Assembly (NCBI RefSeq): GCF_021401245.1 | Contig: NZ_JACBFY010000006.1 | Span: 1-64,000 of the forward strand | Source of the DNA: Pseudacidovorax sp. NFM-22 | GTDB taxonomy: Bacteria > Pseudomonadota > Gammaproteobacteria > Burkholderiales > Burkholderiaceae_C | Direction: 5' to 3' | DNA length: 64,000 nucleotides | Part shown: piece after piece, positions 23,718 to 38,257 of the stretch | How positions within the stretch are numbered: position 1 is the stretch's first letter | Layout of the letters: the number at the start of each line of letters is the position of its first letter | Translations under genes and position numbers: made by a program | Notes under the pieces: model-generated | Database searches by the model: none | What the model was told of the DNA's origin: nothing | What the model saw: the letters and a program-made list of their open reading frames with translations, nothing else

Positions 23718-25844
23718 TCAGAGGGCCGCGACCTGGACCAGCGTGTCCGAGAAGGTCGGCGCCCGCCCCAGGTCGGCGAACACCGCCGGTGTGATCGCAT
23801 GCACGTTGCCGGTGCCGCGGCTGCTGCGGTGCCAGTAGCCCGAGGGCGCCACCACCAGGCCCGGCATCACATCGGCCGACAGGGTGGCCTTGGCCTCGAA
23901 GGCGCCGCGGTCGTTGAACACGCGGATCGGCGTGCCGGCCTCGATGCCGCGGCGGCTGGCGTCTTCCGGATGCAGCAGCACCAGCTGCTCTTCGCCGGCC
24001 TGCATCTGCTGCGCCGGCAGGTTGCCGAAGTTGGAGTTGAGGAAGGCATGGCTCTTGGGCGAGATCAGGCTCAGCGGGTAGCGCTCGGCCAGTGCCGGCG
24101 CGGTGGCCGGGGTCTCGTTGGGCCGGATGTAGTGCGGCAGCGGGTCCACCGGCTCGCCCGACTGGTCGGCGCCGTAGCCCTGGCGGAACAGCGGCGCGAC
24201 GAAGTTGCCGCCTTCGGCCAATGAGGACTTGAATTCGCACTTGCCCGAGGGCGTCGGAAAGTTGCCCTCGCGGTGCGGCGCCCAGTCGGCCGCGGCGGGC
24301 ATGGACAGGCGCATGTAGCCGCGCGCCTTGAGCGCGTCCAGCGTGATGCCCTGCATCACGGGGCTCGCCCAGTCCATGGACTCCGCGATCATCTGCGCGT
24401 CGCTGCGCTGGAAGAAGGGGTCGTCGATGCCCAGCGCCTTCGCCAGGCGGCGGAAGAGTTCGGTGTTGGGGACCGCCTCGCCCAGCGGCGCGATGGCCGC
24501 GTTGTTGTACGTCAGGTAGAGGTGCCCCCACGAGAACATGATGTCCTCCTGCTCCAGCTGCGTGGTGGCGGGCAGCACGATGTCGGCATAGCGCGCCGTG
24601 TCGGTCATGAAGTGCTCGCTGACCACGGTGAACAGGTCATCGCGCATCAGGCCCTGGGCGATCTTGTCCTGCTCGCACACCATGGCCATGGGGTTGGCGT
24701 TGTAGACGAAGAGGGCGCGGATGGGTGGCCCCGACGGCAGCTCGCCGTTGAGCGCCGGGCCCAGTCGCCAGCTGTTGATCACGCGCATCGAGGCCGGCTG
24801 CAGGTCGGGCCGCATCAGGCCCGGCCAGTTGACCGGAAAGGCCCAGATGGGCAGCTGCAGCAGGCCGCCGCCCACCTGCTTCCAGGCGCCGATCAGCGCC
24901 GGCAGGCAGGAGATGGCGCGCACCGTCTGGCCGCCGCCCGCATGGCGCTCCACCGCCACGCCGATGCGGATCACCGCGGGTGGCGTGCTGGCGTATTCAC
25001 GCGTGAGCCTGAGGATGTCCTCGACCGGAATGCCCGTCTCCTCGGCCGCGAATTCGGGCGTGTATTGCGCCACGCGCTCGGCCAGCTCGTCGAAGCCGAC
25101 CGTGTGCTGCGCGATGTAGTCGCGGTCCAGCCGGCCTTCCTGGATCAGGATGTGCGCCATGGCCAGCGCCAGTGCGCCGTCGGTGCCGGGCCGGATGGGG
25201 ATGTGCCAGTCGGCCAGCCGCGCGGTGCGCGTGCGCACCGGGTCGATCACCACCAGCTTGGCCCCGTTCTTCCTGGCCTGCTCGATGAAGGGCCAGTGGT
25301 GCGAGTTGGTGCTGAGCGTGTTGCAGGCCCACAGGATGATGTAGCGCGAATGCACGAAGCTCTCCGGGTCCACGCCCGGCGTGTGGCCGATGGTCATCAT
25401 GTAGGCGGTGCACGAGCCCGAGTCGCAGAAGGTGCGCTCGCACACGGTGGCGCCCAGCTTGTTGAACAGCGGATCGCCCACGTTCAGCCCGTTGAGGATG
25501 CCCTGCGTGCCCAGGTAGCTGTAGGGCAGGATGGCCTGCGGCCCGTCCTGCGCGATGACGTCCTTGAAGCGGGCGGCGATCTCGGCCACGGCTTCGTCCC
25601 AGCCGATGCGCTCGAACTGCCCACTGCCCTTGGGGCCGGTGCGCCGCATGGGGTAGAGCAGGCGCTGGTCGCTGTAGACGCGGTCCTGGTAGTTGTTGAC
25701 CTTCACACACAGCCGGCCACGGGTGAAGGGGTGCTCGGGATTGCCGCGCACGGCGATGGCCTTGCCATCTTCGACCGTGGTGATGAGGGAGCAGGTGTCG
25801 GGGCAGTCATGCGGGCAGGCGCCCATCACGGTGGTGCGGGTCAT
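23718..25844 (-). CDS. Molybdopterin (bis-MGD) oxidoreductase with N-terminal [4Fe-4S] site
   Basis: This 708-aa protein belongs to the DMSO-reductase superfamily. The N-terminal Fe-S motif is CPHDCPDTC plus a fourth Cys in RGRLCVKVNNY. MGD-binding regions follow (YLGTQGILNG, LWACNTLSTNSHHW, and C-terminal PSGYWHRSSRGTGNVH). The segment CERTFCDSGSC covers the expected Mo-ligand region, but I cannot decide the ligand by eye. No Tat signal is present, so it is cytoplasmic. It is the first gene of an operon with ferredoxin, reductase and moaA. The substrate is unknown. Confidence 0.92.
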   Translation of the reverse strand: MTRTTVMGACPHDCPDTCSLITTVEDGKAIAVRGNPEHPFTRGRLCVKVNNYQDRVYSDQRLLYPMRRTGPKGSGQFERIGWDEAVAEIAARFKDVIAQDGPQAILPYSYLGTQGILNGLNVGDPLFNKLGATVCERTFCDSGSCTAYMMTIGHTPGVDPESFVHSRYIILWACNTLSTNSHHWPFIEQARKNGAKLVVIDPVRTRTARLADWHIPIRPGTDGALALAMAHILIQEGRLDRDYIAQHTVGFDELAERVAQYTPEFAAEETGIPVEDILRLTREYASTPPAVIRIGVAVERHAGGGQTVRAISCLPALIGAWKQVGGGLLQLPIWAFPVNWPGLMRPDLQPASMRVINSWRLGPALNGELPSGPPIRALFVYNANPMAMVCEQDKIAQGLMRDDLFTVVSEHFMTDTARYADIVLPATTQLEQEDIMFSWGHLYLTYNNAAIAPLGEAVPNTELFRRLAKALGIDDPFFQRSDAQMIAESMDWASPVMQGITLDALKARGYMRLSMPAAADWAPHREGNFPTPSGKCEFKSSLAEGGNFVAPLFRQGYGADQSGEPVDPLPHYIRPNETPATAPALAERYPLSLISPKSHAFLNSNFGNLPAQQMQAGEEQLVLLHPEDASRRGIEAGTPIRVFNDRGAFEAKATLSADVMPGLVVAPSGYWHRSSRGTGNVHAITPAVFADLGRAPTFSDTLVQVAAL

Positions 25845-26946: not shown

Positions 26947-27972
26947 TCAGGCGCTGGCGAGCTGACGCGCTCCGGGTGCAGGGGCGGCGGCGCCCCAGCC
27001 CTTCCACCCCCGCAGCCACTGCACGAAGCGCGGTAGCCCTTCGGCCAGCGGCGTGGCTGCCCAGGGGCCGATGGCCGCCTCCAGCCGCGACGGGTCGGCG
27101 CAGGTGAGCGGCACGTCGCCCACCGGCCTGGGTGCGAAGGCCACCACGGCCCGGCGGCCCAGCGCTGCTTCGAGCTGCGCCACGAAGTCGACCACCCGCA
27201 CCGGCTGCCGGTGGCCGAGGTTGAGCACCTCGCACGGCACGCCTTCCGCATCGGGCGCGGGCGGGCCGCGGCGCACCAGGCGCAGCAGCGCATCCACCAC
27301 GTCGTCGATGCAGGTGAAGTCGCGCTGCAGCAGGCCGTGGCCATAGAGCGTGATCGGTCGGCCGGCCTGGATGGCCTCGGCGAAGCCCCAGTAGGCCATG
27401 TCGGGCCGGCCCCAGGGCCCGTACACGGTGAAGAAGCGCAGGCTGGTGGCCGGCAGGCCGTGCACGGCAGCCGTGGCATGCGCCATCAGCTCGTTGGCCT
27501 TCTTGGTGGCGGCATAGAAGGAGGCCGGCGCATCGGTGCTGTCCTGCTCGCGGAAGGGCGCGTCGGCCCGCTGGCCATACACGCTCGATGAGCTGGCATG
27601 GAGCAGGTGGCGGACGCCGTTCAACCGGCAGGCCTCCAGCACCGAGGCGAAGCCCACCAGGTTGGCCGTGGCGTACTCCAGCGGCCGCTGCACCGAATGG
27701 CGCACGCCGGCCTGCGCGGCCAGGTGCAGCACCACCTCGCAGCGGTGGCGGGCCCAGAAGGCCTGGGTGGCGGCCACGTCCGACAGGTCCAGCGCGGCCA
27801 CCTCCACGCCCAGTGGCGCCAGCAGCGCCTGCACGCGGTCGTGCTTGAGCCGCGGGTCGTAATAGCTGTTGAAGCTGTCGCAGCCCACCACGCGGTGGCC
27901 GGCCCGAGCCAGGGCCGCCGCGGCATGGGCGCCGATGAAGCCGGCAGCGCCGGTGACGAGCACGGAGGTCAT
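26947..27972 (-). CDS. NAD-dependent sugar epimerase, UDP-glucuronate 4-epimerase-like
   Basis: This 341-aa short-chain dehydrogenase of the extended type starts with the NAD loop VTGAAGFIGAHAAAAL. The catalytic set is Ser in SSSSVYG and YxxxK in FYAATKKANE. SLRFFTVYGPWGRPDMAYWGF is typical of enzymes that interconvert UDP-glucuronate and UDP-galacturonate. UDP-glucose dehydrogenase in the same region (34688-35854) would supply its substrate. It is convergent with the araC gene and divergent from the PAP2 gene. Confidence 0.88.
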   Translation of the reverse strand: MTSVLVTGAAGFIGAHAAAALARAGHRVVGCDSFNSYYDPRLKHDRVQALLAPLGVEVAALDLSDVAATQAFWARHRCEVVLHLAAQAGVRHSVQRPLEYATANLVGFASVLEACRLNGVRHLLHASSSSVYGQRADAPFREQDSTDAPASFYAATKKANELMAHATAAVHGLPATSLRFFTVYGPWGRPDMAYWGFAEAIQAGRPITLYGHGLLQRDFTCIDDVVDALLRLVRRGPPAPDAEGVPCEVLNLGHRQPVRVVDFVAQLEAALGRRAVVAFAPRPVGDVPLTCADPSRLEAAIGPWAATPLAEGLPRFVQWLRGWKGWGAAAPAPGARQLASA

Positions 27973-28090
27973 GCGCCGCAATGTGACGCCGCCACAAGTC
28001 AGCCATGTGGCATTCAGCTTTCCGTCGCACCGCTGACATGCAGCCTGCCTACCGTCGGGCGGTCCGCGTTGTCCATTGCCCCGCTGCGCC

Positions 28091-28948
28091 ATGTCCTCGA
28101 CCTCGACCTCCGATTCCATCGCGTCCCCGGCGCTGCCGATGCGCCGGCTGCCCCTGGCGGTGGCGGCCCTGCTGCTCGGCGCGCTGCTGCTGCGCCTGAC
28201 CGAGGCCGACCTGCCGCTCTTCCGCAGCCTGAATGCGCTGGCGGCCGTGCTGCCCGACACGCTCTGGTCGGGCCTGAGCGTGCTGGGGCTCGGGCTGTCG
28301 ATCGGACTCATCGGCCTGGCGCTGTCGCCGGGCCGCGAGCGTGGGGCGATGCGGCTCATCAACGGGCTGATGTGGGCCTTTCCGCTGGGCGGGCTGCTCT
28401 CGCACGTGCCCAAGCGCCTGTTCGTGCAGCTGCGGCCACCGGGCGTGCTGCCACCGGATCAACTGCATGTGATCGGCGATCCGCTGGTGCACCTGGCCAT
28501 GCCGTCGGGGCATGCGCTGGCGGCGGTGGCCTTCGTCTGGGTGGTGCTGCACACGCGCCATTGCACGGCGGCGCAGCGCGCGCTGCTGTGGGGCATGGCG
28601 GCGGCGGTGGCGCTGTCGCGCATCGCCGTGGGCGCGCACTGGCCCAGCGACGTGCTGGCCGGCGCGGCGCTGGGCCTGGTGGCGGCGGCGCTCAGCCTGC
28701 GGGCGGCGCAGCGCTGGGACCTCAGCGGCCTGCTCACGCGGCGCCGGGCCCAGGCGGTGATGGCCCTGGTGCAGGTGGGTGCGGGCCTGGCCATGCTGTG
28801 GACGACGACCGGCTATCCGTTGGGCGCGCCACTGCAGTGGGCCCTGGGCCTGGCCGGCGTGGCCGGTGGCCTGCTGCGCCTGCGCTGGGTGGCGGTGCCG
28901 GCGCTGGCGGCACGCCAGCCGGGCTGGATGACGGAGCGGGCGGGGTGA
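28091..28948 (+). CDS. PAP2-family membrane phosphatase
   Basis: This 285-aa integral membrane protein has the three PAP2 motifs: KRLFVQLRP, PSGHALA and SRIAVGAHWPSD. Several hydrophobic helices surround them, so the active site should face the periplasm. Family members remove phosphate from undecaprenyl diphosphate, phosphatidate or lipid A. It is the first gene of the rightward envelope operon; the next gene starts within a few bases of its stop. Confidence 0.9.
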   Translation: MSSTSTSDSIASPALPMRRLPLAVAALLLGALLLRLTEADLPLFRSLNALAAVLPDTLWSGLSVLGLGLSIGLIGLALSPGRERGAMRLINGLMWAFPLGGLLSHVPKRLFVQLRPPGVLPPDQLHVIGDPLVHLAMPSGHALAAVAFVWVVLHTRHCTAAQRALLWGMAAAVALSRIAVGAHWPSDVLAGAALGLVAAALSLRAAQRWDLSGLLTRRRAQAVMALVQVGAGLAMLWTTTGYPLGAPLQWALGLAGVAGGLLRLRWVAVPALAARQPGWMTERAG

Positions 28949-28953
28949 GCCCC

Positions 28954-29898
28954 ATGCCGCTGCGTGCCGGTTCCGCGATTCGCCGAGCGATGCAGGCCCT
29001 GTCGGCGCTGGTTGCGTTGCTGCTGCTGGCCTGGCTGCTCAGTGACGTGGATGCCCGTGCCTTGGCCGGCACGGCTCGGCGCATGCCGGCCGCGACCTGG
29101 GCCCTCGCGCTGGCAGGCGTGCTGGCCACCTACGGGCTGCGTGCGGCACGGCTGCATGCCGAATGGCGCGCCCGCACCGGCGCGCGCTTCGTCGACTGCC
29201 TGGCGCTGTTCGCCTGGCACAACGCGGCCGTGTCGCTGCTGCCGCTGCGCACCGGCGAGGCGGGCTATGCCTGGTGGCTGCACCGCCACTGGCAGGTGCC
29301 GCTGGCCCAGTCGCTGCCCAGCCTGCTGTGGCTGCGCCTGCAGGACGCGGCCGTGCTGGGCACGATGGTGCTGGCGCTGCTGGTGTCGCCCGCCCTGGCG
29401 TTCGTCGCGGTCGCCGCGCTGGCGTTGCTGGCCGCCGTGGTGCTGCGTGGTGGCCGGGGCGGGCCGGTGGGCGGCATGACCGAGGCCGACCGCGCACCCT
29501 GGCTTCCGCGCCTGCTGCAGGGGCTGTATGGCGGCCGCGGCGGCTGGCGCTCCTGGGCCTTCTGCGCGGCCAACTGGGGCGTCAAGCTGGGTATCTCGGC
29601 CCTGCTGCTGCAGGCGGCGGGGCTGCATCCGGCGGCGCTCGGCTGGTGCGGCGCGGCGGGGGCGGAGGCCGGTGCGGCCCTGCCGCTGCAGGCGCCCGCC
29701 GGGCTGGGCGTGTTCGAGGCTGGCGCCTTGGCGGGCGTGCATCTCTGCGCTGCGGGTGCCGCGCCGGTGGACGCAGGCGCCGTCGTCGGCGCGGCCCTGC
29801 TGGTGCATGCCCTCTGGCTGCTGGTGAGCGTGGGCGCGGCGCTGGTCGTGCTGGCGTCGCGCCGCAGCTTCGCCACGCCCGCGCGGGCGCTTCCGTGA
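28954..29898 (+). CDS. LPG-synthase-type (flippase-like, UPF0104) membrane protein
   Basis: This 314-aa protein is very hydrophobic with about eight membrane helices. It has the family features FAWHNAAVSLLPLRTGEAGYAW and LPLQAPAGLGVFEAGAL seen in the lysylphosphatidylglycerol synthase TM region/UPF0104 group, often annotated as flippase-like. A GTG at 28945 overlapping the PAP2 stop (GTGA) is an alternative start. It may move a lipid-linked sugar across the membrane for the glycosyltransferases downstream (inference). Confidence 0.85.
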   Translation: MPLRAGSAIRRAMQALSALVALLLLAWLLSDVDARALAGTARRMPAATWALALAGVLATYGLRAARLHAEWRARTGARFVDCLALFAWHNAAVSLLPLRTGEAGYAWWLHRHWQVPLAQSLPSLLWLRLQDAAVLGTMVLALLVSPALAFVAVAALALLAAVVLRGGRGGPVGGMTEADRAPWLPRLLQGLYGGRGGWRSWAFCAANWGVKLGISALLLQAAGLHPAALGWCGAAGAEAGAALPLQAPAGLGVFEAGALAGVHLCAAGAAPVDAGAVVGAALLVHALWLLVSVGAALVVLASRRSFATPARALP

Positions 29899-29917
29899 AT
29901 CCCGATCCTGCCGCCCC

Positions 29918-30976
29918 ATGGACCGCACCGCCCCAACCCATCTGCTCGCGCGCGACACCGCGCAGTTGCCGCCGCACCGGCTTTCCGTCGTCGTGCCCAT
30001 GTACAACGAGGTCGAGAACGCCGCCGCCCTGGTCGACGCCGTGCAGGCGGCGCTGGCCCATTACCCCGCACCCTGGGAGCTCATCGTGGTCGACGACGGC
30101 AGCCAGGACGGCACCGGCCCCGCGCTGGAGCGCCGCGCCGCCGAGCTGGGCCCGCATGTGCGCGTGCTGCGCCTGGCGCGCAACTTCCGCCAGACGGCCG
30201 CCATGCAGGCCGGCATCGACGTGGCGCGGGGCGACGTCATCGTCACGCTCGACGGCGACCTGCAGAACGATCCGCACGACATCCCGCGGCTGGTGCGCCG
30301 CCTGCTGGCCGAGGACCTGGACATCGTGGCCGGCTGGCGCCGCCACCGGCAGGACGGGCTGTGGCTGCGCAAGCTGCCCTCGCGCCTGGCCAACCGGCTG
30401 ATCCGCCGTGTGACGGGGCTGGACTTCGAGGACCTGGGCTGCAGCCTCAAGGCCTTCCGCGCCGAGACGCTGCGCGAGGTGCGCCTGTATGGCGAGATGC
30501 ACCGCTTCATCCCTGCGTGGCTCGCGACGGTGACCTCGCCCGCGCGCATGGCGCAGGAGCCGGTGGCGCACCATCCGCGCCGCGCGGGCCAGTCCAAGTA
30601 CGGCCTGTCGCGCACGCTGCGGGTGGTGGTGGACCTGCTGGCCATCACCTTCTTCATGCGCTTCGCGGCGCGGCCCGGCCACTTCTTCGGCGTGCTGGGG
30701 CTGTCGGTCGGCGGGGCGGGCGCGCTCATCCTGAGCTACCTGGCGGCGCTCAAGCTGGCGGGCCACGACATCGGCGGCCGGCCGCTGCTGTCGCTGGGCT
30801 TCTTCTGCCTGCTGGGCGGGTTGCAGCTGCTGATGACCGGCGTGCTGGCGGAGCTGGTCACGCGCATCTACTACGGCGGCCGGCATGGCTCGCCCTATGT
30901 GCTGCGGCGCGGCCAGGCCGCGGCGCCGCCGGCCGCCGAAGGCTGGTGCGGCGGAGGTGCCGATGCGCATGGCTGA
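29918..30976 (+). CDS. Family 2 glycosyltransferase, polyprenyl-phosphate sugar synthase type
   Basis: This 352-aa protein has a cytoplasmic GT-A domain with LSVVVPMYNEVENA, LIVVDDGSQDGT and the metal-binding TLDGDLQNDP, followed by AHHPRRAGQSKYGL and two C-terminal membrane helices. This layout is that of dolichyl/undecaprenyl-phosphate sugar synthases (DPM1, GtrB, ArnC, RgtE), which load a sugar onto a lipid phosphate. It overlaps the ArnT-like gene by 14 bp, matching the donor-maker/transferase pairing seen in lipid A sugar systems. Confidence 0.92.
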   Translation: MDRTAPTHLLARDTAQLPPHRLSVVVPMYNEVENAAALVDAVQAALAHYPAPWELIVVDDGSQDGTGPALERRAAELGPHVRVLRLARNFRQTAAMQAGIDVARGDVIVTLDGDLQNDPHDIPRLVRRLLAEDLDIVAGWRRHRQDGLWLRKLPSRLANRLIRRVTGLDFEDLGCSLKAFRAETLREVRLYGEMHRFIPAWLATVTSPARMAQEPVAHHPRRAGQSKYGLSRTLRVVVDLLAITFFMRFAARPGHFFGVLGLSVGGAGALILSYLAALKLAGHDIGGRPLLSLGFFCLLGGLQLLMTGVLAELVTRIYYGGRHGSPYVLRRGQAAAPPAAEGWCGGGADAHG

Positions 30977-32645
30977 GTTCATCGCATCGCGGCCCGCCGC
31001 CGAGCGCCGCACGATGGCGGGGTGGGCGCTGGCCATGGGCCTGGTCGCGCTGCTGGGCCTGGGGCTGGCGCCGCTCTTCGATGTGGACGAAGGCGCCTTC
31101 TCCGAGGCCACGCGCGAGATGCTGGCCAGCGGCGACTGGGGCCACACCACGCTGAACGGCGAGCCGCGCTTCGACAAGCCCATCCTCATCTACTGGCTGC
31201 AGGCGGCGAGCGTGCAGCTCTTCGGCCTGAACGAGGCGGCCCTGCGCCTGCCCTCGGGCCTCGCCACCTGGGCCTGGGTGCTGGCCGTGGCGGCCTTCGC
31301 CTGGCCGCGCTGGGGCCAGCGTGCCGCCATGCTGGCCGGTACCGTGCTCGGCACCAGCGCGGGCGTGCTGCTGATCGGCCGCGCGGCCACGGCCGATGCG
31401 CTGCTCAATCTGTGGCTGGCGCTCACGGCGCTGGATCTGTGGCGACATGCCGAAGGCGGCGCCGATGCGCGCACCGCCCTGCGCCGGGCCGCCCTGTGGT
31501 GCGGGCTGGGCGTGCTCACCAAGGGACCGGTGGCGCTGCTGGTGCCCATGGCGGCCCTGCTGCTGTGGATCGTCACGTCGGGCCGCGCTGCCTGGGTGCC
31601 GCGCGCACGGGCACTTTTGTGCGACGGCTGGGCGTGGCTCATCTTCGCGGCCGTCGCGTTGCCCTGGTATGCCTACGCGCTGCACCGGCATGGCATGGCC
31701 TTCGTCGACGGCTTCCTGTTGCGCCACAACCTGCAGCGCTACGGCGGACCGCTGGAAGGCCATGGTGGCAGCCTGCTGTACTACGTCGTGCTGCTGCCCC
31801 TGCTGATGCTGCCGTGGACGCCGCTGCTGGTGCCGCTGCTGGCCCGCCTGCGCGCCACCTGGCGCGAGCCGCTGGGCCGCTACCTGCTGCTGTGGGCGGG
31901 CTTTGTGCTGGTGTTCTTCAGCTTCTCGGGCACCAAGCTGCCGCACTATGTGCTGTACGGCTTCACGCCGGTGGCGTTGCTGGCTGGGCGGGAGGCGGCG
32001 CGCTGGCTGGAGGGCGCGCCCGATGCACGCTGGGCCCTGTACGTGCAGGCGGGCCTGCTGGCGCTGTGGCCGGCGGCGGCCGTGGCGGTGACGGCCTGGG
32101 TCGCCCTGCAGGCGGCGCGCGTGGCCAATCCGCTCTACCGCGCACTGATCGGCCAGCCCGCCGCGCTGACGCCGCTGGCCGTCGCGGCCCTGACCGCCGC
32201 GCTGGGCGTGCTGCTGTTGCTGCGCCTGCGCCGCTGGACCCCGTCCGTGCGCTGGAGCGCGGCCGGCGCCGGTGTGGCCCTCGTGCTGACGCTGGCCGTC
32301 GTGCCATGGTGGGGCCGGCAGCTGCAGGCGCCGGTGCGCGCGGCGGGCCAGCGGGCCGCCGAAGTGCTGGCGCGGACCGACGACGCGGCCGATGCGACGC
32401 TGGTGCAGTGGGGCCTGCACCTGCCCAGCGTGGCCGTCTACGCCCGACGCGAAACCCCGCGACGGCCGCCCCTGCCGGGCGATCTGGCCCTGGCGCGCGA
32501 GGACCAGGTCGACGTCCTCGCATCGCAGCTGGCCGCCCTGCCGGCGGGGCGCCGGCCGTCCGACGCGGACGCCACGCTGCCGACCTGGCAGCCATTGCTG
32601 CGCATGGGCGGCCTGGTGCTGCTGCGATGGAACGGTGCACCATGA
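30963..32645 (+). CDS. ArnT-like (GT39/GT83) membrane glycosyltransferase
   Basis: This 560-aa protein has about a dozen membrane helices and the first-loop acidic motif LFDVDEGAFSEATREML of the PMT/ArnT superfamily, plus FDKPILIYWLQ and FSGTKLPHYVLYG. Such enzymes take a sugar from an undecaprenyl-phosphate donor and attach it to lipid A or another periplasmic acceptor. The GT2 gene just upstream probably makes the donor. The stop overlaps the next gene (ATGA). Confidence 0.92.
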   Translation: MRMAEFIASRPAAERRTMAGWALAMGLVALLGLGLAPLFDVDEGAFSEATREMLASGDWGHTTLNGEPRFDKPILIYWLQAASVQLFGLNEAALRLPSGLATWAWVLAVAAFAWPRWGQRAAMLAGTVLGTSAGVLLIGRAATADALLNLWLALTALDLWRHAEGGADARTALRRAALWCGLGVLTKGPVALLVPMAALLLWIVTSGRAAWVPRARALLCDGWAWLIFAAVALPWYAYALHRHGMAFVDGFLLRHNLQRYGGPLEGHGGSLLYYVVLLPLLMLPWTPLLVPLLARLRATWREPLGRYLLLWAGFVLVFFSFSGTKLPHYVLYGFTPVALLAGREAARWLEGAPDARWALYVQAGLLALWPAAAVAVTAWVALQAARVANPLYRALIGQPAALTPLAVAALTAALGVLLLLRLRRWTPSVRWSAAGAGVALVLTLAVVPWWGRQLQAPVRAAGQRAAEVLARTDDAADATLVQWGLHLPSVAVYARRETPRRPPLPGDLALAREDQVDVLASQLAALPAGRRPSDADATLPTWQPLLRMGGLVLLRWNGAP

Positions 32646-33565
32646 GCCTGCAGCCGCTGCCCCTGGGTGAGGAGATGTGCGCCGTGCCGATGGCGTCCAT
32701 GGCACCTGCTGTGCCTGCTCCTGCATCGGCCCCTGCATCTGCAGCGTTCTGGGTCCGGCCGGTGCCCGGTCGCGCGCGGCGTCGACCGTGCCCGCGCCAG
32801 GTGGTCTGGCTCGGCTGGCTGGCGGCCGTGCTGGCCTGCGGCCTGGTCTTCCGCACCTGGCCGGCGCTGGACCTGGCGGCCTCCGCGCCCTTCTACCTGC
32901 CGCAGATTCCCACCGGCTTCATCGGCAACCTGTACCACGGGGTGCTGGACCTGTGGCGGCTGGTGCCGCAGCTCGGCCGCGTGCTGGGGTTGGCAGGCCT
33001 GCTGGTGCTGCTGGTGCCGGCGCGGCGCATTCCCTGCGGCGTGGTGCGGCGCTGGCGCGGCCGGCTGCTGGCCGTCGTGGCGCTGCTGCTGCTGGGCGTG
33101 TGCCTGGTGGTCAACCAGGGCCTCAAGGAGCATGTCGGCCGTCCCCGGCCGCAGCAGGTCCGGCCCTTCGGCGGGCCGAGCGACTATGTGCCGGTGGGCA
33201 GCCTCTCGCGGGCCTGCGAGCGCAACTGTTCCTTCGTCAGCGGCCATGCGGCCACCGGCTTCGTGATCGCGGGCTTCGGCCTGTGGGGCGTGCGGCGGGT
33301 GCGCCGGCGCTGGTGGGCAGCCGGCGCCCTGCTGTGCCTGCTGCTCGGTGCGGCGCGGGTGGCCCAGGGCGGGCACTTTGCCAGCGACGTGGTCTTCAGC
33401 CTGCTGGTGATGACCGGCGTGGCCATGGCCCTGCGTGCGGCCGTGGTGCGGTGGCGCAGCCTGCGGCGGCGCATCGGCCGGCAGCGGGCGGCGCGCGCGG
33501 GCCAGCGGGTGGCGCCCGCGTCAGGCTGCGGGCTGCCAGTCCGGCCGATCATTCCCTTGTCATGA
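32642..33565 (+). CDS. PAP2-family phosphatase, LpxE-like
   Basis: This 307-aa membrane protein has a long Ala/Pro-rich cytoplasmic lead, then several helices and the PAP2 motifs KEHVGRPRP, CSFVSGHAATG and RVAQGGHFASD. The KX6RP spacing and the bulky first extramembrane loop resemble LpxE-type lipid A phosphatases, but the acceptor cannot be proved by eye. It is translationally coupled to the ArnT-like gene before it and the dioxygenase gene after it (ATGA overlaps at both ends). Confidence 0.87.
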   Translation: MSLQPLPLGEEMCAVPMASMAPAVPAPASAPASAAFWVRPVPGRARRRPCPRQVVWLGWLAAVLACGLVFRTWPALDLAASAPFYLPQIPTGFIGNLYHGVLDLWRLVPQLGRVLGLAGLLVLLVPARRIPCGVVRRWRGRLLAVVALLLLGVCLVVNQGLKEHVGRPRPQQVRPFGGPSDYVPVGSLSRACERNCSFVSGHAATGFVIAGFGLWGVRRVRRRWWAAGALLCLLLGAARVAQGGHFASDVVFSLLVMTGVAMALRAAVVRWRSLRRRIGRQRAARAGQRVAPASGCGLPVRPIIPLS

Positions 33566-34464
33566 GCACCGTCCTTCGCTTCCTGCCCGAGCTGGGCCAC
33601 TGGATCACCCACAACCTCGATGCCGGCGCGCCACCCGATGGGCTGGTCGACGCGATGGCCGGCCAGGGCATGGCCGACCCTGCGGCGCAGGCCATCGTCG
33701 CGGCCTTCGTGGAGGCCCGCCGACGTGGCGTCGCTGCGCCGGTGGACAGCGTGGCGCTGCCGGATGAGCCGGCGGCACGTCCCTTCATCGCCCGGCCACG
33801 ACTGCCAGCGGGCCACCGCATCGCCGCGGCGGACCGCGAGGTCACCGTGCATGCGCGCGGCCACGACCCCGTGTGGGCCGCGCTGGGCCCGGTGCTGGAC
33901 GCGGACGAATGCCGGGCGTTGATCGACATGGCGCGCCCGCGCTTGCGGCCGTCCACGCTGGTCGACCCGATGAGCGGCCGGGACGTGGTCAGCCAGCACC
34001 GCAGCAGCTGGGGGATGTTTTTCCGCCTGGGCGAGAACGCGCTGGTCGCGCGGCTCGACCGGCGCCTGTCGGCGCTGATGAACCTGCCGCTGGAAAACGG
34101 CGAGGGCCTGCAGCTGCTGCACTACCCGGTCGGCGCGGGCAGCGAGCCGCACCACGACTACCTGGCGCCCACCAATGCCGCCAACCGCGAATCGGTGGCC
34201 CGCAGCGGCCAGCGCGTGAGCACGTTGGTGACCTACCTCAACGACGTGCCGGCGGGCGGCCAGACCGTGTTCCCTCACCTGGGACTGGCCTTCTCGCCCG
34301 TGCAGGGCCATGCCTGCTACTTCGAGTACGGCGACGGCCAGGGCGGTGTGGACCCGCGCTGCCTGCATGCCAGCAGCCCGGTCGAGCAGGGCGAGAAGTG
34401 GGTCGTGACCAAGTGGATGCGCGAGCGCCGCTTCGTGAGTGCGGGCGAGGCTGCCGCAGACTGA
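33562..34464 (+). CDS. 2-oxoglutarate/Fe(II) dioxygenase, prolyl 4-hydroxylase alpha-like
   Basis: This 300-aa protein has a helical N-terminal part and a C-terminal double-stranded beta-helix. The Fe(II) ligands are in EPHHDYLAP (His-x-Asp) and CLHASSP (distal His), and the 2-oxoglutarate Lys is in GEKWVVTKW. No signal peptide is visible. It ends the envelope operon and overlaps the PAP2 gene by ATGA. The hydroxylated target is unknown. Confidence 0.9.
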   Translation: MSTVLRFLPELGHWITHNLDAGAPPDGLVDAMAGQGMADPAAQAIVAAFVEARRRGVAAPVDSVALPDEPAARPFIARPRLPAGHRIAAADREVTVHARGHDPVWAALGPVLDADECRALIDMARPRLRPSTLVDPMSGRDVVSQHRSSWGMFFRLGENALVARLDRRLSALMNLPLENGEGLQLLHYPVGAGSEPHHDYLAPTNAANRESVARSGQRVSTLVTYLNDVPAGGQTVFPHLGLAFSPVQGHACYFEYGDGQGGVDPRCLHASSPVEQGEKWVVTKWMRERRFVSAGEAAAD

Positions 34465-34555
34465 GGGTCGGCCCGCCATCGGCCTTGCGCGTCGCTCTTG
34501 CGCTCGCCTTTCCCTCGCGGGCGCAGGCACTGTCCGCACTGGCGGGCATCTTGCA

Positions 34556-34671
34556 CCCTCTCCCCTTGCGGGAGAGGGCGGGGGAGAGGGGGCCACGGCG
34601 CCCGTAGGGTACAGGCGGCGGGTGGTGGTGCTCCCCCCTCTCCCCACCCCTCTCCCGCGAGGGGAGAGGGG
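34556..34671. repeat. Second REP-like inverted pair
   Basis: Units 34556-34592 and 34633-34671 repeat the arrangement seen at 7480-7595, with CCCTCTCCCC...GGGAGAGGG cores in opposite orientation and about 40 bp between. It again lies between two convergent genes (dioxygenase and UDP-glucose dehydrogenase). The 223-bp gap between those genes holds nothing else that I recognise. Confidence 0.8.
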
Positions 34672-34687
34672 CTCCGGTCACACCTTG

Positions 34688-35854
34688 TCAGTCCCCGCCG
34701 AAGAGGTCGCGGGTGTAGACGCGGTCCCGCACGTCGTCCAGCTCCGGCGTGGCGCGGTTGGCGACGATCAGCGCGGCCTCGCGCTTGAACCGGGCCAGGT
34801 CGCGCACCACCGGCGAGCCGAAGAACTGGTCATCGGCGAGCGTGGGCTCGTACACGATCACCGGCACGCCCTTGGCCTTGATGCGCTTCATGATGCCCTG
34901 CACGCTGCTGGTGCGAAAGTTGTCCGAGCCGGCCTTCATGGTCAGCCGGTAGATGCCCACCGGCCCGCTGCTGCGCGCCAGGATGTCGCGCGCCAGGAAG
35001 TCCTTGCGCGTGGTGTTGGCCGTGACGATGGCCCGGATCAGGTTCTGCGGCACGTCGGCATAGTTGGCCAGCAGCTGCTGCGTGTCCTTGGGCAGGCAGT
35101 AGCCGCCATAGCCGAAGCTCGGGTTGTTGTAGTGCAGGCCGATGCGCGGATCGAGCCCCACGCCGGTGATGATCTGCCGTGGGTCCAGCCCGTGGCTCAG
35201 GGCGTAGGTGTCCAGTTCGTTGAAGAAGGCCACGCGCATGGCCAGGCAGGTGTTGGCGAAGAGCTTGATGGCCTCGGCCTCGCTGCTGCCGGTGAGCAGC
35301 AGCGGCACCTCGGCCGCCAGCGCGCCCTCGCGCAGCAGGGCGGCCACGCGCCGGCCGCGCGGGCCGGTGTCGCCCACCACGATGCGGCTGGGATGCAGGC
35401 TGTCGTGCAGGGCGCGGCCTTCGCGCAGGAACTCGGGCGCGAACACGATGGCGTCGTGGCCCAGGCGTTCGCGCAGCGCCCGCGTGTGGCCCACGGGCAC
35501 GGTGGAGCGGACCACCACCAGCGCCTGCGGCGCCCAGGCCAGCGCATCGGTCGTCACGGCGTCCACGCTGCGGGTGTCGAAGTGGTTGGCCACCGGGTCG
35601 TAGTCCGTGGGTGTGGCCACGATCACCAGCTCGGCGCCGTCGTAGGCCAGGTTGCGGTCCAGCGTGGCAGTGAGGTCCAGCCCGCCGCCGGCCAGCTGCG
35701 CCTGCAGCTCGGCGTCGACGATGGGGCTCAGGCCGGCGCGCAGGGCCTCGACCTTGCGTGCGTCGGTGTCGAGCACCACCACATGGTGATGGCGCGCCAG
35801 CATCACGGCATTGGCCAGGCCGACATAGCCGGCCCCGACGACGGCGATCTTCAT
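34688..35854 (-). CDS. ugd: UDP-glucose 6-dehydrogenase
   Basis: This 388-aa enzyme oxidises UDP-glucose to UDP-glucuronate in two steps. It starts with the NAD loop [20 protein letters not shown] and contains [18 protein letters not shown], the nucleotide-sugar part [20 protein letters not shown] and the catalytic Cys in [11 protein letters not shown] (about residue 250). Length matches the short Ugd class. Its product would feed the epimerase at 26947-27972. It is followed on the same strand by nothing and preceded by the GT4 gene (22-bp gap). Confidence 0.95.
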
Positions 35855-35876
35855 GGCGGCGGCTCCGCGGTGGCGA

Positions 35877-37016
35877 TCAGGCAGTGGCGGCCGCGGCCAC
35901 GGCGGTGGGCCCGCTGCCCTGCGCGGCCCCGCCGTGGTCGGCGCGATCGTCATCGACGGCGGCCGTGCCCTCGGCGGCGATGCGTTCGGCGGCGGCCAGC
36001 GCGGCGGACTTGTCGCCGCGCCGGGGCGCCAGCGCCTGCAGCATCTGCCGCGTGGCGGCCGGCCAGCTGTAGCGCTCGGCGAAGCGCCGCACGCCCCCGC
36101 GCGGCTTCTGCAGGGCGGCCAGGCAGGCGGCGCGCAGGTCGTCGCTCAGCACGCCGCCGGGCGACTCCGGGCCCACCACGTCGATGGGCCCCGGCACCGG
36201 GTAGGCGGCCACCGGCGTGCCGCAGGCCATGGACTCGGCCATCACCAGCCCGAAGGTGTCGGTGACGCTGGGGAAGACGGTCACGTCGGCCGTGCGGTAG
36301 AGGCTGGCCAGCGCCTCCACGTCCAGCAGGCCCAGCCAGCGTGCCTCGGGAAAGCGGGCCTTGAGCTTGGCCAGTTCCGGGCCTTCGCCGGCCACCCATT
36401 TCTGGCCGGGCAGGTCGAGTTCGAGGAACTTGTGCACCTGCTTCTCGACCGCGATGCGGCCCACGTACAGGAAGACCGGTTCGGCCGGCCGTTCCATGCG
36501 CGGGCCCACCGGGTTCATTGCCGCCAGGTTGACGCCGCGCGACCACAGCCGCGCCTGTGTGAAGCCGCGCTGCTTCAGGTCGTCCACGATGGCCGGTGTG
36601 GGCGCCAGCGTGGCGCGTGCCGCGTTGTGGAAGCGGCGCAGCACCGCATAGCTCCAGCCCAGCGGCAGCCGCGCGCGGGCGTGCACGTATTCCGGAAAGC
36701 GGCTGTGGTAGGCCGTGGTGAAGGGCCAGCCGCGCGACAGGGCGATGCTGCGCGCCGCCCAGCCCAGCGGGCCTTCGGTCGCGATGTGCAGGCAGTCGGG
36801 GTCGATGGCGTCGATGCGGCGGGCCACGCCGGCGCGCGAGGTCAGCGCCAGCGAGATCTCCGGGTACGTGGGACAGGGCACCGAGCGGAAGTCCAGCGGC
36901 GAGAGCACATGCACCTCCACGCCCAGGCGCTGCAGCTCGCGGCGTGTCATCTTGAGCGTGCGCACGACGCCGTTGACCTGGGGTTCCCAGGCATCCGAGA
37001 CGATCAGCAGTTTCAT
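35877..37016 (-). CDS. Family 4 glycosyltransferase
   Basis: This 379-aa GT-B enzyme resembles the MgtA/GtfA-like alpha-mannosyl and glycolipid glucosyltransferases. The N-terminal [20 protein letters not shown] and the donor-binding C-terminal domain with [17 protein letters not shown] and [20 protein letters not shown] (E-x7-E) are clear. The last 35 residues are an Ala/Asp-rich tail. Its start overlaps the lplT stop. It could build a glycolipid or LPS sugar; the product is unknown. Confidence 0.9.
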
Positions 37017-38257
37017 GGCAGGTCCCTGGTGGAAGAGGTGGCGGACAGAGAAGGCGCACGGGGCGCGCCTGTACAGCGAGGGGGTGCTGCGCTGCGCCTC
37101 GCATACAGGCCTGCGGCCAGCAGCGTGCCCAGCGCCACGCAGGCACCCAGGGCGGTGGTCAGCAGGGCGATGGACTGGCCCGACCCGAGCAGCGCTGCAT
37201 AGACCCCCAGCATCGCCAGCACGCCCAGGTTCTCGTTGAAGTTCTGCACTGCGATGGATTCGCCCGGCCGCAGCAGCAGATGGCCGCGGTGCTGCAGCAG
37301 CGCATTCATCGGCACCACCAGCAGGCCGGCCAGGGTGCCGATCAGCGTGAGCAGCACGATGGCGACGGGCAGCGTGTCCACGCCCACCATCAGCGGCACA
37401 CCTGCGCCCATCAGCACGCCCAGCGGCAGCACGCGGGGGGCCTGGTGCAGCCGCACCCATCGCCCGGCCAGTGCCGCACCCGCCACGATGCCCAGGGCCA
37501 CCACGGCCTGCAGGTAGGCCGCCTGGTCCAGGCCCAGGTTCAGCGCGGCCTGCGCCCAGGCCAGCACCACCAGCTGCAGCGTGGCGCCCGCGCCCCAGAA
37601 GAGGGTGGTGATGGCCAGCGACAGCCCGCCCTGCGGATCGCGCCACAGCGTGGCGTTGGCCGTGGCGAAGCGGCCCACGAGCGCGGCCGGCGCCCAGCCC
37701 ACGCCACTGCCGTGCGACACGCCGCGCGGGATCAGCAGGTTGAGCAGGCCTGCCAGCGCGTAGGTGGCCAGCACCACGGCCAAGGCCGTGTCCACGCCCG
37801 GCATGCGCGCGCTGACGAGCAGGCCGCCGAAGCCCGTGCCCAGCACGATGGCGCACACGGTGCTGACCTCGATCCAGCCGTTGGCGCGCACCAGCATCGC
37901 GGGCGGCACCTGCTCGGTGATCAGCCCGTACTTGGCCGGCGAATAGACCGCGGCCCCGAGCCCCGCCAGCGCGAAGGCGACCAGCGGGTGCAGCCCCAGC
38001 ACCATGCCGCAGGCCGCGCCCGCCTTGAGCAGGTTGGCGGCCAACATGACCAGGGCCTTGGGCCAGCGGTCGGCCAGCGCACCCACCCAGGGCGCGAGCA
38101 GCACATAGGCCAGCGTGAAGCAGAACTTGAGCATGGGCGCCATCCACACCGGCGCGCCCATCGCCATCAGCTGCGCGATGGCGATGACCAGCAGCGCGTT
38201 GTCGGCCAGGCCCGAGAAGAACTGCGCGGCCAGCAGCCAGTGCATGCCGCGGTTCAC
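37013..38257 (-). CDS. lplT: Lysophospholipid transporter LplT-like MFS protein
   Basis: This 414-aa major-facilitator protein matches LplT, which flips lysophospholipids inward for re-acylation. WLLAAQFFSGLADNALL and YSPAKYGLITEQVPPAMLVRANGWIE are typical. It starts with GTG at 38257 (ATG at 38245 possible). The partner acyltransferase Aas is not adjacent; a PlsC is encoded at 14417. It overlaps the GT4 gene by 4 bp. The Ala/Ser/Thr tail beyond the last helix is poorly conserved. Confidence 0.9.
   Translation of the reverse strand: MNRGMHWLLAAQFFSGLADNALLVIAIAQLMAMGAPVWMAPMLKFCFTLAYVLLAPWVGALADRWPKALVMLAANLLKAGAACGMVLGLHPLVAFALAGLGAAVYSPAKYGLITEQVPPAMLVRANGWIEVSTVCAIVLGTGFGGLLVSARMPGVDTALAVVLATYALAGLLNLLIPRGVSHGSGVGWAPAALVGRFATANATLWRDPQGGLSLAITTLFWGAGATLQLVVLAWAQAALNLGLDQAAYLQAVVALGIVAGAALAGRWVRLHQAPRVLPLGVLMGAGVPLMVGVDTLPVAIVLLTLIGTLAGLLVVPMNALLQHRGHLLLRPGESIAVQNFNENLGVLAMLGVYAALLGSGQSIALLTTALGACVALGTLLAAGLYARRSAAPPRCTGAPRAPSLSATSSTRDLP

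Follow-up and report, generated by a model that had tools for sequence, protein, structure and literature searches.

The closest described counterparts of the locus analysed here are the Rgt enzymes of Rhizobium and Mesorhizobium (RgtE, RgtD/RgtF and RgtA-C) together with the lipid A phosphatases LpxE and LpxF. As far as the available portions of the sources go, galacturonate-containing lipid A has been reported for some Alphaproteobacteria, for Aquifex and for two marine Echinicola (PMC7663294, PMC10179214); in Oligotropha, galacturonate is described at both C-1 and C-4' of lipid A, and lpxE, rgtF and rgtE are neighbouring tags (c19740, c19750 and c19730, respectively; Table 4 of PMC7663294). 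Furthermore, galacturonate at position 1 has been argued, in the accessible part of PMC6581854, to need prior dephosphorylation. Here we analysed positions 26947-37016 of a 64,000-nucleotide stretch (hereafter the window: contig positions 1-64000 in the 6.4-Mb genome of Pseudacidovorax sp. NFM-22, order Burkholderiales), which a first-pass annotation had proposed to be a galacturonate decoration system for lipid A or lipopolysaccharide (LPS). All families named in that annotation are encoded there, i.e. an epimerase, PAP2, PF03706/UPF0104, GT2, an ArnT-like GT-C, PF13640 and Ugd, and we conclude that the operon probably encodes an Rgt-like system that replaces phosphate by galacturonate. That the system is real, conserved and mosaic, and that its sugar is galacturonate, we hold with considerable confidence; that the acceptor is lipid A seems likely.

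From the gene families, motifs, GT2 clade, linkage, co-occurrence and fused reading frames computed here we infer the following route, in which every reaction, side of the membrane, acceptor and position is a prediction. Ugd would convert UDP-glucose to UDP-glucuronate, and the epimerase (EPIM) would convert UDP-glucuronate to UDP-galacturonate. GT2 would load galacturonate onto polyprenyl phosphate at the cytoplasmic face, and the UPF0104 protein would carry polyprenyl-phosphate-galacturonate across the inner membrane. PAP2a, which is LpxE-like, would remove one of the lipid A phosphates, most probably the one at position 1, GT-C would transfer galacturonate onto the hydroxyl freed by PAP2a, and the LpxF-like PAP2b, whose usual partner is a second GT-C (GTC2), would remove the other lipid A phosphate. 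Because neither of the two Pseudacidovorax genomes searched yielded a GTC2 ortholog (best E-values 4.8e-7 in G000 and 1.7e-8 in G177), the predicted lipid A would carry one galacturonate, probably at C-1, and a dephosphorylated C-4'. The genes assigned to this route, with start codons chosen from the translations, are:

26947..27972, minus strand: EPIM, candidate UDP-glucuronate 4-epimerase that would make UDP-galacturonate (PF01370), divergent from the operon
28091..28948, plus strand: PAP2a, LpxE-like lipid phosphatase, candidate lipid A 1-phosphatase (PF01569)
28945..29898, plus strand: UPF0104 membrane protein, candidate polyprenyl-phosphate-galacturonate flippase (PF03706)
29918..30976, plus strand: GT2, candidate polyprenyl-phosphate galacturonosyltransferase of the RgtE type (rhizobial GT2 clade; below the cut-off of the ArnC model)
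30963..32645, plus strand: GT-C, ArnT/Rgt-like, candidate lipid A galacturonosyltransferase (below the cut-off of NF009784; PDB 5ezm)
32642..33565, plus strand: PAP2b, LpxF-like lipid phosphatase, candidate lipid A 4'-phosphatase (below the cut-off of NF045633)
34688..35854, minus strand: Ugd, UDP-glucose 6-dehydrogenase, predicted to supply UDP-glucuronate (NF011631, TIGR03026, 3phl)

The six plus-strand genes from PAP2a to a dioxygenase that follows PAP2b overlap by 4-14 bases or, in a single case, are separated by a gap of 19 bases, and therefore look like one operon. EPIM, on the minus strand, is divergent from it across 118 bases, and Ugd is part of a second tight minus-strand group that is convergent on the operon. 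Scans of the locus for promoters and terminators gave no signal above shuffled controls.

Occurrence was followed in 250 genomes drawn from the family, and a further 299 were drawn from the phylum. GT-C matches at E<=1e-20 were obtained in 75 of the 250 genomes, and 20 genomes scoring at least 385 bits were taken as carriers of a GT-C ortholog because of the gap in score to the next match (113 bits); these carriers represent 12 genus labels. GT2 (E<=1e-60) was present in all 20 carriers vs 17/230 other genomes (Fisher p 9e-20), and a close GT2 (at least 66% identity) in 15/20 vs 2/230. EPIM (E<=1e-60) was present in 19/20 carriers vs 84/230 others (Fisher p 2e-7). Counted by genus label, which removes relatedness only in part, the figures are 12/12 vs 9/129 for GT2 and 12/12 vs 53/129 for EPIM. 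One genome of the same genus, G071, has no GT-C ortholog, GT2, EPIM or PF00984 dehydrogenase, so that only part of the genus has the route.

Gene order was read around the window and in the surroundings fetched for the other 19 GT-C orthologs. The arrangement PAP2a-UPF0104-GT2-GTC-PAP2b, with or without GTC2 after GT-C and with EPIM divergent, recurs in Pseudacidovorax, Sphaerotilus and Leptothrix (L001-L006 and L008; L004 ends after GT-C), GT-C being 88-95% identical in the Pseudacidovorax loci L001-L004. Since the same order recurs in these loci and GT2 accompanies GT-C in 20/20 vs 17/230 genomes, the gene grouping is not due to chance. The fullest version was found in three genomes of one other genus (L068-L070), where Ugd-PAP2a-UPF0104-GT2-GTC-GTC2 and then EPIM lie on one strand, the contig starting inside Ugd in L068 and L069; PAP2b precedes EPIM in these two loci and was not detected in L070. 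L060 and L061 have the gene order of the window plus GTC2, with EPIM divergent. Outside this family, two loci from elsewhere in the order have similar sets: GTC-PAP2a-GT2 in L128, and GT2-GTC-GTC2-PAP2b with a weak PAP2/UPF match in between in L129. In a further set of loci (L079-L084 and L094), a GT2 less closely related to that of the window (about 50% identity) lies about 2.5 kb from EPIM, with Ugd nearby in six, a GT-C match between GT2 and EPIM in 5/7 (Pfam-tested in L079 only) and no PAP2 match. Relatives of the window GT2 are thus accompanied by uronate enzymes in these loci as well, and this set may possibly transfer galacturonate to an acceptor from which no phosphate has to be removed.

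The best PDB relatives of EPIM are 5u4q (5.6e-87; titled dTDP-glucose 4,6-dehydratase), 6zl6 (1.8e-40) and MoeE5 6kv9 (3.5e-40), with the UDP-glucose epimerase 7ys8 slightly behind (3.2e-37). We take 6zl6 to be the UDP-glucuronate 4-epimerase of Bacillus cereus and MoeE5 to be a UDP-glucuronate epimerase. When aligned with 6zl6, EPIM has the YxxxK catalytic pair (YAATK) and GRPDM, and its motif RFFTVYGPWGRPDM includes the Arg aligned with residue 185 of 6zl6, the Arg that holds the carboxylate of UDP-galacturonate; residue 185 corresponds to the Arg of RPDM and residue 178 to the Thr of FTVYG, both being kept. The Arg motif is identical in all 26 locus rows, which include the window copy (L026) and the duplicates L059 and L060 (equal to L001 and L005). 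Judged by these residues, EPIM would be a UDP-glucuronate 4-epimerase. Ugd matches NF011631 with 551.6 bits (cut-off 757), TIGR03026 with 308 bits (over the cut-off of 189.8) and the Ugd structure 3phl with 3.1e-160. The EPIM motif and the structural match of Ugd therefore make it very likely that UDP-galacturonate is available in the host, and the pairing of Ugd with an epimerase suggested in the first-pass annotation is further backed by their union with glycosyltransferases in the L068-L070 operon. The same operon, headed by Ugd, supports counting Ugd as part of the system, but the window Ugd itself belongs to a separate convergent operon. In an EPIM tree from which the duplicate loci L026, L059 and L060 were excluded, the cluster-linked EPIM of Pseudacidovorax, Sphaerotilus and Leptothrix formed a single clade (support 99) and that of L068-L070 belonged to a different one; therefore the epimerase joined the system at least twice or was replaced once. 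A second Ugd-type dehydrogenase is encoded in the genome of the window (G000:C18:336977-338884, L024) beside a sugar epimerase/dehydratase, about 300 kb off.

The type of GT2 was addressed with a tree of 69 GT2s (68 chosen locus rows plus the window), a quick tree with support from the Shimodaira-Hasegawa-like approximate likelihood ratio test (SH-aLRT) only and with several long branches flagged. The window GT2 fell in a Burkholderiales clade of 25 rows (support 99), which is part of a 35-row clade (97) also containing two single rows, the five rhizobial GT2s (100) and three more GT2s from a different genus that shares the family label of the rhizobial ones. Nine ArnC-like GT2s formed a separate clade (98), with the window GT2 outside it, and the two members of that clade that were tested both exceeded the ArnC cut-off of 529 (L138, 626.6 bits; L139, 546.5 bits). 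The rhizobial rows are that of Sinorhizobium meliloti (L135), in which a flippase-like gene is divergent from GT2-GT39 and to whose GT2 the window GT2 is 49% identical, and those of L124-L127. In L126 and L127 three GT-Cs surround GT2 and UPF0104 is divergent, a layout that presumably fits the rgt cluster of R. leguminosarum; a 10-kb piece of L126 gave 129 matches in a plasmid collection, 122 of them from Rhizobium, each covering at most 12% of its length. By this grouping GT2 would be of the rhizobial rgt type rather than an ArnC, which agrees with the earlier suggestion that it loads undecaprenyl phosphate with galacturonate. GT2s on plasmids of Azospirillum lipoferum, where there is a PF03706-type neighbour, and of Leisingera sit amid genes of the polysaccharide type; no PAP2 is annotated around them, and they were not used as support. 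A second GT2 and GT-C pair is encoded in the window's genome (G000:C17:574279-575361; L078 8255-10218) at 31-34% identity, and the PgfS model fits its GT2 better than ArnC does.

The sole PDB match of GT-C, to which it was aligned, is ArnT 5ezm (1.6e-21), and residues D41, D43, E44, D72, K73 and D146 are invariant in an alignment of 15 sequences. We take these to be the acidic residues of the first periplasmic loop, the (D/E)K motif and the second Asp of ArnT/Rgt enzymes, so that the window GT-C has the features expected of this GT-C fold. A plasmid search with GT-C returned 52 records, and the best 25 of the 52 are all annotated as ArnT (33-35% identity). Since GT-C co-occurs and co-localises with GT2 and the epimerase, it holds up as a candidate galacturonate transferase. 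PAP2a was searched as a profile of 17 sequences against the PDB, the first match being Aquifex LpxE 6ebu (1.6e-24; next 2.1e-12); the motifs KX6RP, PSGH and RX5HX3D are invariant in its alignment, and its structure model (predicted local distance difference test, pLDDT, 51) was not used. The PAP2a and PAP2b alignments comprised 16 and 13 chosen loci, respectively, each plus the window. The LpxF and PAP2_lipid_A models match all 14 aligned PAP2b sequences (E<=0.001), and in the PDB the PAP2b profile matches the phosphatidylglycerol phosphate phosphatase YodM (2.7e-6).

The phosphatases and GT-Cs tend to travel together. PAP2a lies within 3.3 kb of GT-C in 18/20 carriers, the exceptions being L074 (where the GT-C match starts at contig base 152) and L077, and it directly adjoins GT-C in six. 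One of these is a single frame, that of L066:7998-10469, where PAP2a and GT-C form 823 residues starting at the GT2 stop. In five loci (L062, L072, L073, L075 and L076) PAP2a and GT-C are adjacent with no GT2 within the fetched stretch. PAP2b accompanies GTC2 in L091-L093, and G033 and G241 have two separate loci, PAP2a-GTC and UPF0104-GT2-GTC2-PAP2b; neither PAP2b nor GTC2 was detected in L063, L066 and L071. Based on this linkage, on the likeness to LpxE and LpxF and on the Oligotropha lpxE-rgtF-rgtE tags, PAP2a and GT-C would act on lipid A position 1, and PAP2b and GTC2 on position 4', with exceptions. The first-pass annotation had spoken of an LpxE-like PAP2 that could clear the lipid A phosphate; a PAP2 resembling a lipid A phosphatase is indeed present, but there are two PAP2 genes, seemingly paired with particular GT-Cs.

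The UPF0104 protein matches PF03706 with 49.7 bits (gathering cut-off 33.4). When its AlphaFold2 model (pLDDT 75) was compared with the PDB, MprF took ranks 1-6 (probability 1.00, E 4.7e-4 to 2e-2), the fold match having a template modelling (TM) score of about 0.5 and a root-mean-square deviation of about 10 A. In L009:7015-8805 PAP2a and UPF0104 share one frame of about 597 residues (Pfam), and L010:7048-8844 has a frame of the same size, judged by the length of the open reading frame only. UPF0104 lies near GT2 in most of the Burkholderiales clusters fetched around GT-C orthologs and in 8/8 rhizobial-looking loci examined (L120-L122, L124-L127 and L135); it was not detected in L128 and L130-L134. 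The earlier description of the UPF0104 protein as an added local feature was therefore not borne out, since it also adjoins rhizobial GT2s. As judged from this neighbourhood and the modelled fold, it is the best candidate for moving polyprenyl-phosphate-galacturonate. We know of no identified flippase for the rhizobial galacturonate carrier. A tentative and wider proposal would be that UPF0104 flips this carrier in both Burkholderiales and rhizobia, and that the phosphatase-transferase pairs, in one case a single fused protein, are position-specific machines swapping phosphate for uronate that are gained and lost pairwise; its odds are lowered by the related GT2s beside which no UPF0104 was detected.

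The locus is thus similar to the Rgt plus LpxE/LpxF systems in having an RgtE-type GT2, a GT-C and PAP2s resembling 1- and 4'-phosphatases, with UPF0104 beside GT2 also in the rhizobial-looking loci, and the GT2 clade and PAP2 likenesses sustain the parallel already drawn in the first-pass annotation, according to which the route would work like Rgt plus LpxE/LpxF. It differs in that the window system is nearly all in one operon, that phosphatase and transferase genes of the window type tend to pair (once in one frame), that the window GT-C matches the ArnT model whereas the GT39 of S. meliloti matches no NCBIfam model, and that the host belongs to the Burkholderiales. Among PDB entries Aquifex LpxE is the nearest to PAP2a, which recalls the bis-galacturonate lipid A of Aquifex and Caulobacter, but the window is without the second GT-C of its Sphaerotilus-type relatives. 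The architecture of GT2 plus GT-C is shared with ArnC/ArnT aminoarabinose systems, which differ from the window in the type of GT2, in ArnA and in the PAP2 phosphatases present here. The modelled UPF0104 resembles the flippase domain of MprF, and GpgF, another UPF0104 protein, is a predicted flippase in an operon for a glucosaminyl-phosphatidylglycerol glycolipid (available part of PMC12713373); the window protein, however, goes with a candidate polyprenyl-phosphate sugar synthase and PAP2 rather than with an aminoacyl- or glycosyl-phosphatidylglycerol synthase.

Three further genes adjoin those of the route:

33562..34464, plus strand: 2-oxoglutarate/Fe(II) (2OG-Fe(II)) dioxygenase (PF13640), operon member here, probably not core
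35877..37016, minus strand: GT4 glycosyltransferase (PF13439/PF00534), probably with a separate glycolipid function
37013..38257, minus strand: LplT lysophospholipid transporter (NF008397, 456 bits, over the cut-off of 297), first gene of LplT-GT4-Ugd

The first-pass annotation had taken the dioxygenase to be an added part of the system. Its place inside the Pseudacidovorax operon hints at membership, as do a 37% homolog about 2.9 kb from GT-C in L062 and close orthologs (at least 70% identity) in 4/20 carriers vs 0/10 hand-picked non-carriers, the ten that also served for Ugd. Homologs, though, are found in 27 of the 30 genomes searched (17/20 carriers and 10/10 non-carriers), and none among these in the genus with the fullest operon (L068-L070); among the loci read, the gene adjoins PAP2b only in Pseudacidovorax, and the 70% orthologs of G139 and G223 are placed elsewhere in the genome. 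The homologs in all ten non-carriers and their absence from the fullest-operon genus make a core role unlikely, and the dioxygenase is probably not a core part. In the second group, which the earlier reasoning had left without its GT4, LplT and GT4 have 4 bases in common, and a gap of about 22 bases follows between GT4 and Ugd. GT4 matches the N-acetylglucosaminyl-phosphatidylglycerol (GlcNAc-PG) synthase model NF053787 weakly (55.5 bits, cut-off 480). In Pseudacidovorax the operon is adjoined by Ugd as well as by GT4 and LplT; GT4 and LplT lie beyond EPIM in L061 (GT4 65% identical), and LplT lies beyond EPIM with a GT4 of 31-32% identity in L006 and L008. The LplT-GT4-Ugd group may produce a separate glycolipid, glucuronosyl or other. 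Upstream, a molybdopterin-oxidoreductase-like protein (window 23718-25700, minus strand; a translation-based call) has no link to the system.

Taken together, the residues of the epimerase, the type of GT2, the co-occurrence, the L068-L070 operon and the PAP2s resembling lipid A phosphatases uphold galacturonate decoration as the candidate function. A number of observations weigh against it. The strongest is that the lipid A of Sphaerotilus natans is listed with three phosphates in a review (available part of PMC10179214); the genes are present in S. hippei and S. mobilis, S. natans itself was not identified among the genomes sampled, and the genus under the Sphaerotilus label is mixed for the system since G248, which has the genus label of G170, has EPIM without a GT2 or GT-C ortholog. 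The curated models were also not reached: GT2 obtains 169.9 bits against NF007986, the model of ArnC (cut-off 529), GT-C 161.6 bits with the ArnT model NF009784 (cut-off 567) and PAP2b 86.8 bits (2e-24) with the LpxF model NF045633, its best family (cut-off 400), so that PAP2b appears related to LpxF without being a certified member; the epimerase motif and the GT2 clade do agree with the expected classes, with the proviso that in this clade S. meliloti and Rhizobiaceae-like loci stand in for RgtE of R. leguminosarum. The nearest NCBIfam model of EPIM is GalE (130.9 bits, cut-off 262.3). With NCBIfam, the model of the undecaprenyl diphosphate (C55-PP) phosphatase SepP matches 17/17 PAP2a relatives and the LpxE model 2/17, and LpxE enzymes also act on C55-PP according to the accessible text of PMC6581854. 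No lipid A phosphatase was matched by the PAP2b profile in the PDB, and PAP2b had no match there as a single sequence. EPIM is linked to GT-C in 7/20 carriers and unlinked in 12, one carrier (G249, 79% complete) has no EPIM match, and five (G015, G059, G151, G234 and G249) have no GT2 other than one of lower identity (about 50%). PAP2b occurs without a detected GTC2 in the window, L065, L067, L009 and L010, GTC2 occurs without a detected PAP2b in L070 and L085, and UPF0104 was not detected in L066; the less closely related GT2s of L079-L084, L086-L090 and L094 likewise had no detected UPF0104 beside them. Ugd-like genes (E<=1e-20) were found in 17/20 carriers vs 5/10 non-carriers, and many of these matches, at 32-37% identity, indicate the dehydrogenase family level only; three carriers (G170, G017 and G008) lacked a match at first, a PF00984 search then revealing a nucleotide-sugar dehydrogenase in G170 and G017 and none in G008 (65% complete). 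No report of galacturonate in Burkholderiales lipid A was found in the literature, a weak absence as most subscription journals lay outside the coverage, and no LPS structure of a certain carrier turned up.

Several other explanations were weighed. The same donor route could end on the LPS core, i.e. on 3-deoxy-D-manno-octulosonic acid (Kdo) or heptose, or on another envelope glycan or glycolipid, with the PAP2s serving carrier or phospholipid metabolism. Rhizobial Rgt enzymes include core transferases, the L079-L084/L094 module combines GT2 and EPIM with a GT-C match in 5/7 loci and no PAP2 match, and the PAP2a relatives match C55-PP phosphatases as well. Nevertheless, PAP2a stays within 3.3 kb of GT-C in 18/20 genomes, one of which has the two in a single frame, models of lipid A phosphatases match 14/14 PAP2b sequences, and a GT-C cycle needs no phosphatase, since such enzymes release polyprenyl phosphate and not the diphosphate; we consider this acceptor rather unlikely. 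Decoration of the ArnC/ArnT type in which the sugar is not galacturonate but, for instance, aminoarabinose or a neutral hexose would explain why ArnC and ArnT are the nearest curated models of GT2 and GT-C and why ArnT is the sole PDB match of GT-C. Yet GT2 lies outside the ArnC clade and far under the cut-off that the two tested clade members pass, no ArnA was found above its cut-off in the window's genome, and the epimerase is linked to and co-occurs with the system, which leaves this a very slim prospect; aminoarabinose itself was rejected on the ArnA result and the tree.

It could also be argued that EPIM is a capsule or exopolysaccharide gene lying beside the operon by chance, as EPIM-type genes occur in 103/250 genomes, 84 of them without a GT-C ortholog, and lie elsewhere in 12/20 carriers. 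This seems highly improbable given that the linked EPIM of three genera form one clade (support 99), that L068-L070 have a linked EPIM from a different clade, that EPIM co-occurs with GT-C in 19/20 carriers, and that G071 is without EPIM, GT2 and the GT-C ortholog together. More plausible, though still doubtful, is that Ugd and GT4 make a glucuronosyl glycolipid with LplT and that the GT2 operon is independent of this Ugd, which would be compatible with the galacturonate route for the other genes. The tight spacing of LplT, GT4 and Ugd, the weak match of GT4 to the GlcNAc-PG synthase model and the second Ugd-type dehydrogenase in the genome point this way, as does the UPF0104 protein accompanying a GT4 glycolipid synthase in gpgSDF, as described in the available part of PMC12713373. 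On the other side, an orthologous Ugd (66-72% identity) heads PAP2a-UPF0104-GT2-GTC in L068-L070, with no GT4 within the fetched stretch.

If the operon indeed encodes a galacturonate-for-phosphate system acting on lipid A, galacturonate lipid A would extend to scattered Burkholderiales, i.e. to 20 of the 250 genomes of the family under 12 genus labels. An outer membrane from which phosphate has been removed differs in its binding of cations and cationic peptides. A GT-C that comes with its own phosphatase would allow the choice of the modified lipid A position to be addressed directly by genetics, and the fused PAP2a-GT-C and PAP2a-UPF0104 frames would make the coupling testable in single proteins. 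Likewise, the UPF0104 neighbour makes the question of the rhizobial galacturonate-carrier flippase testable.

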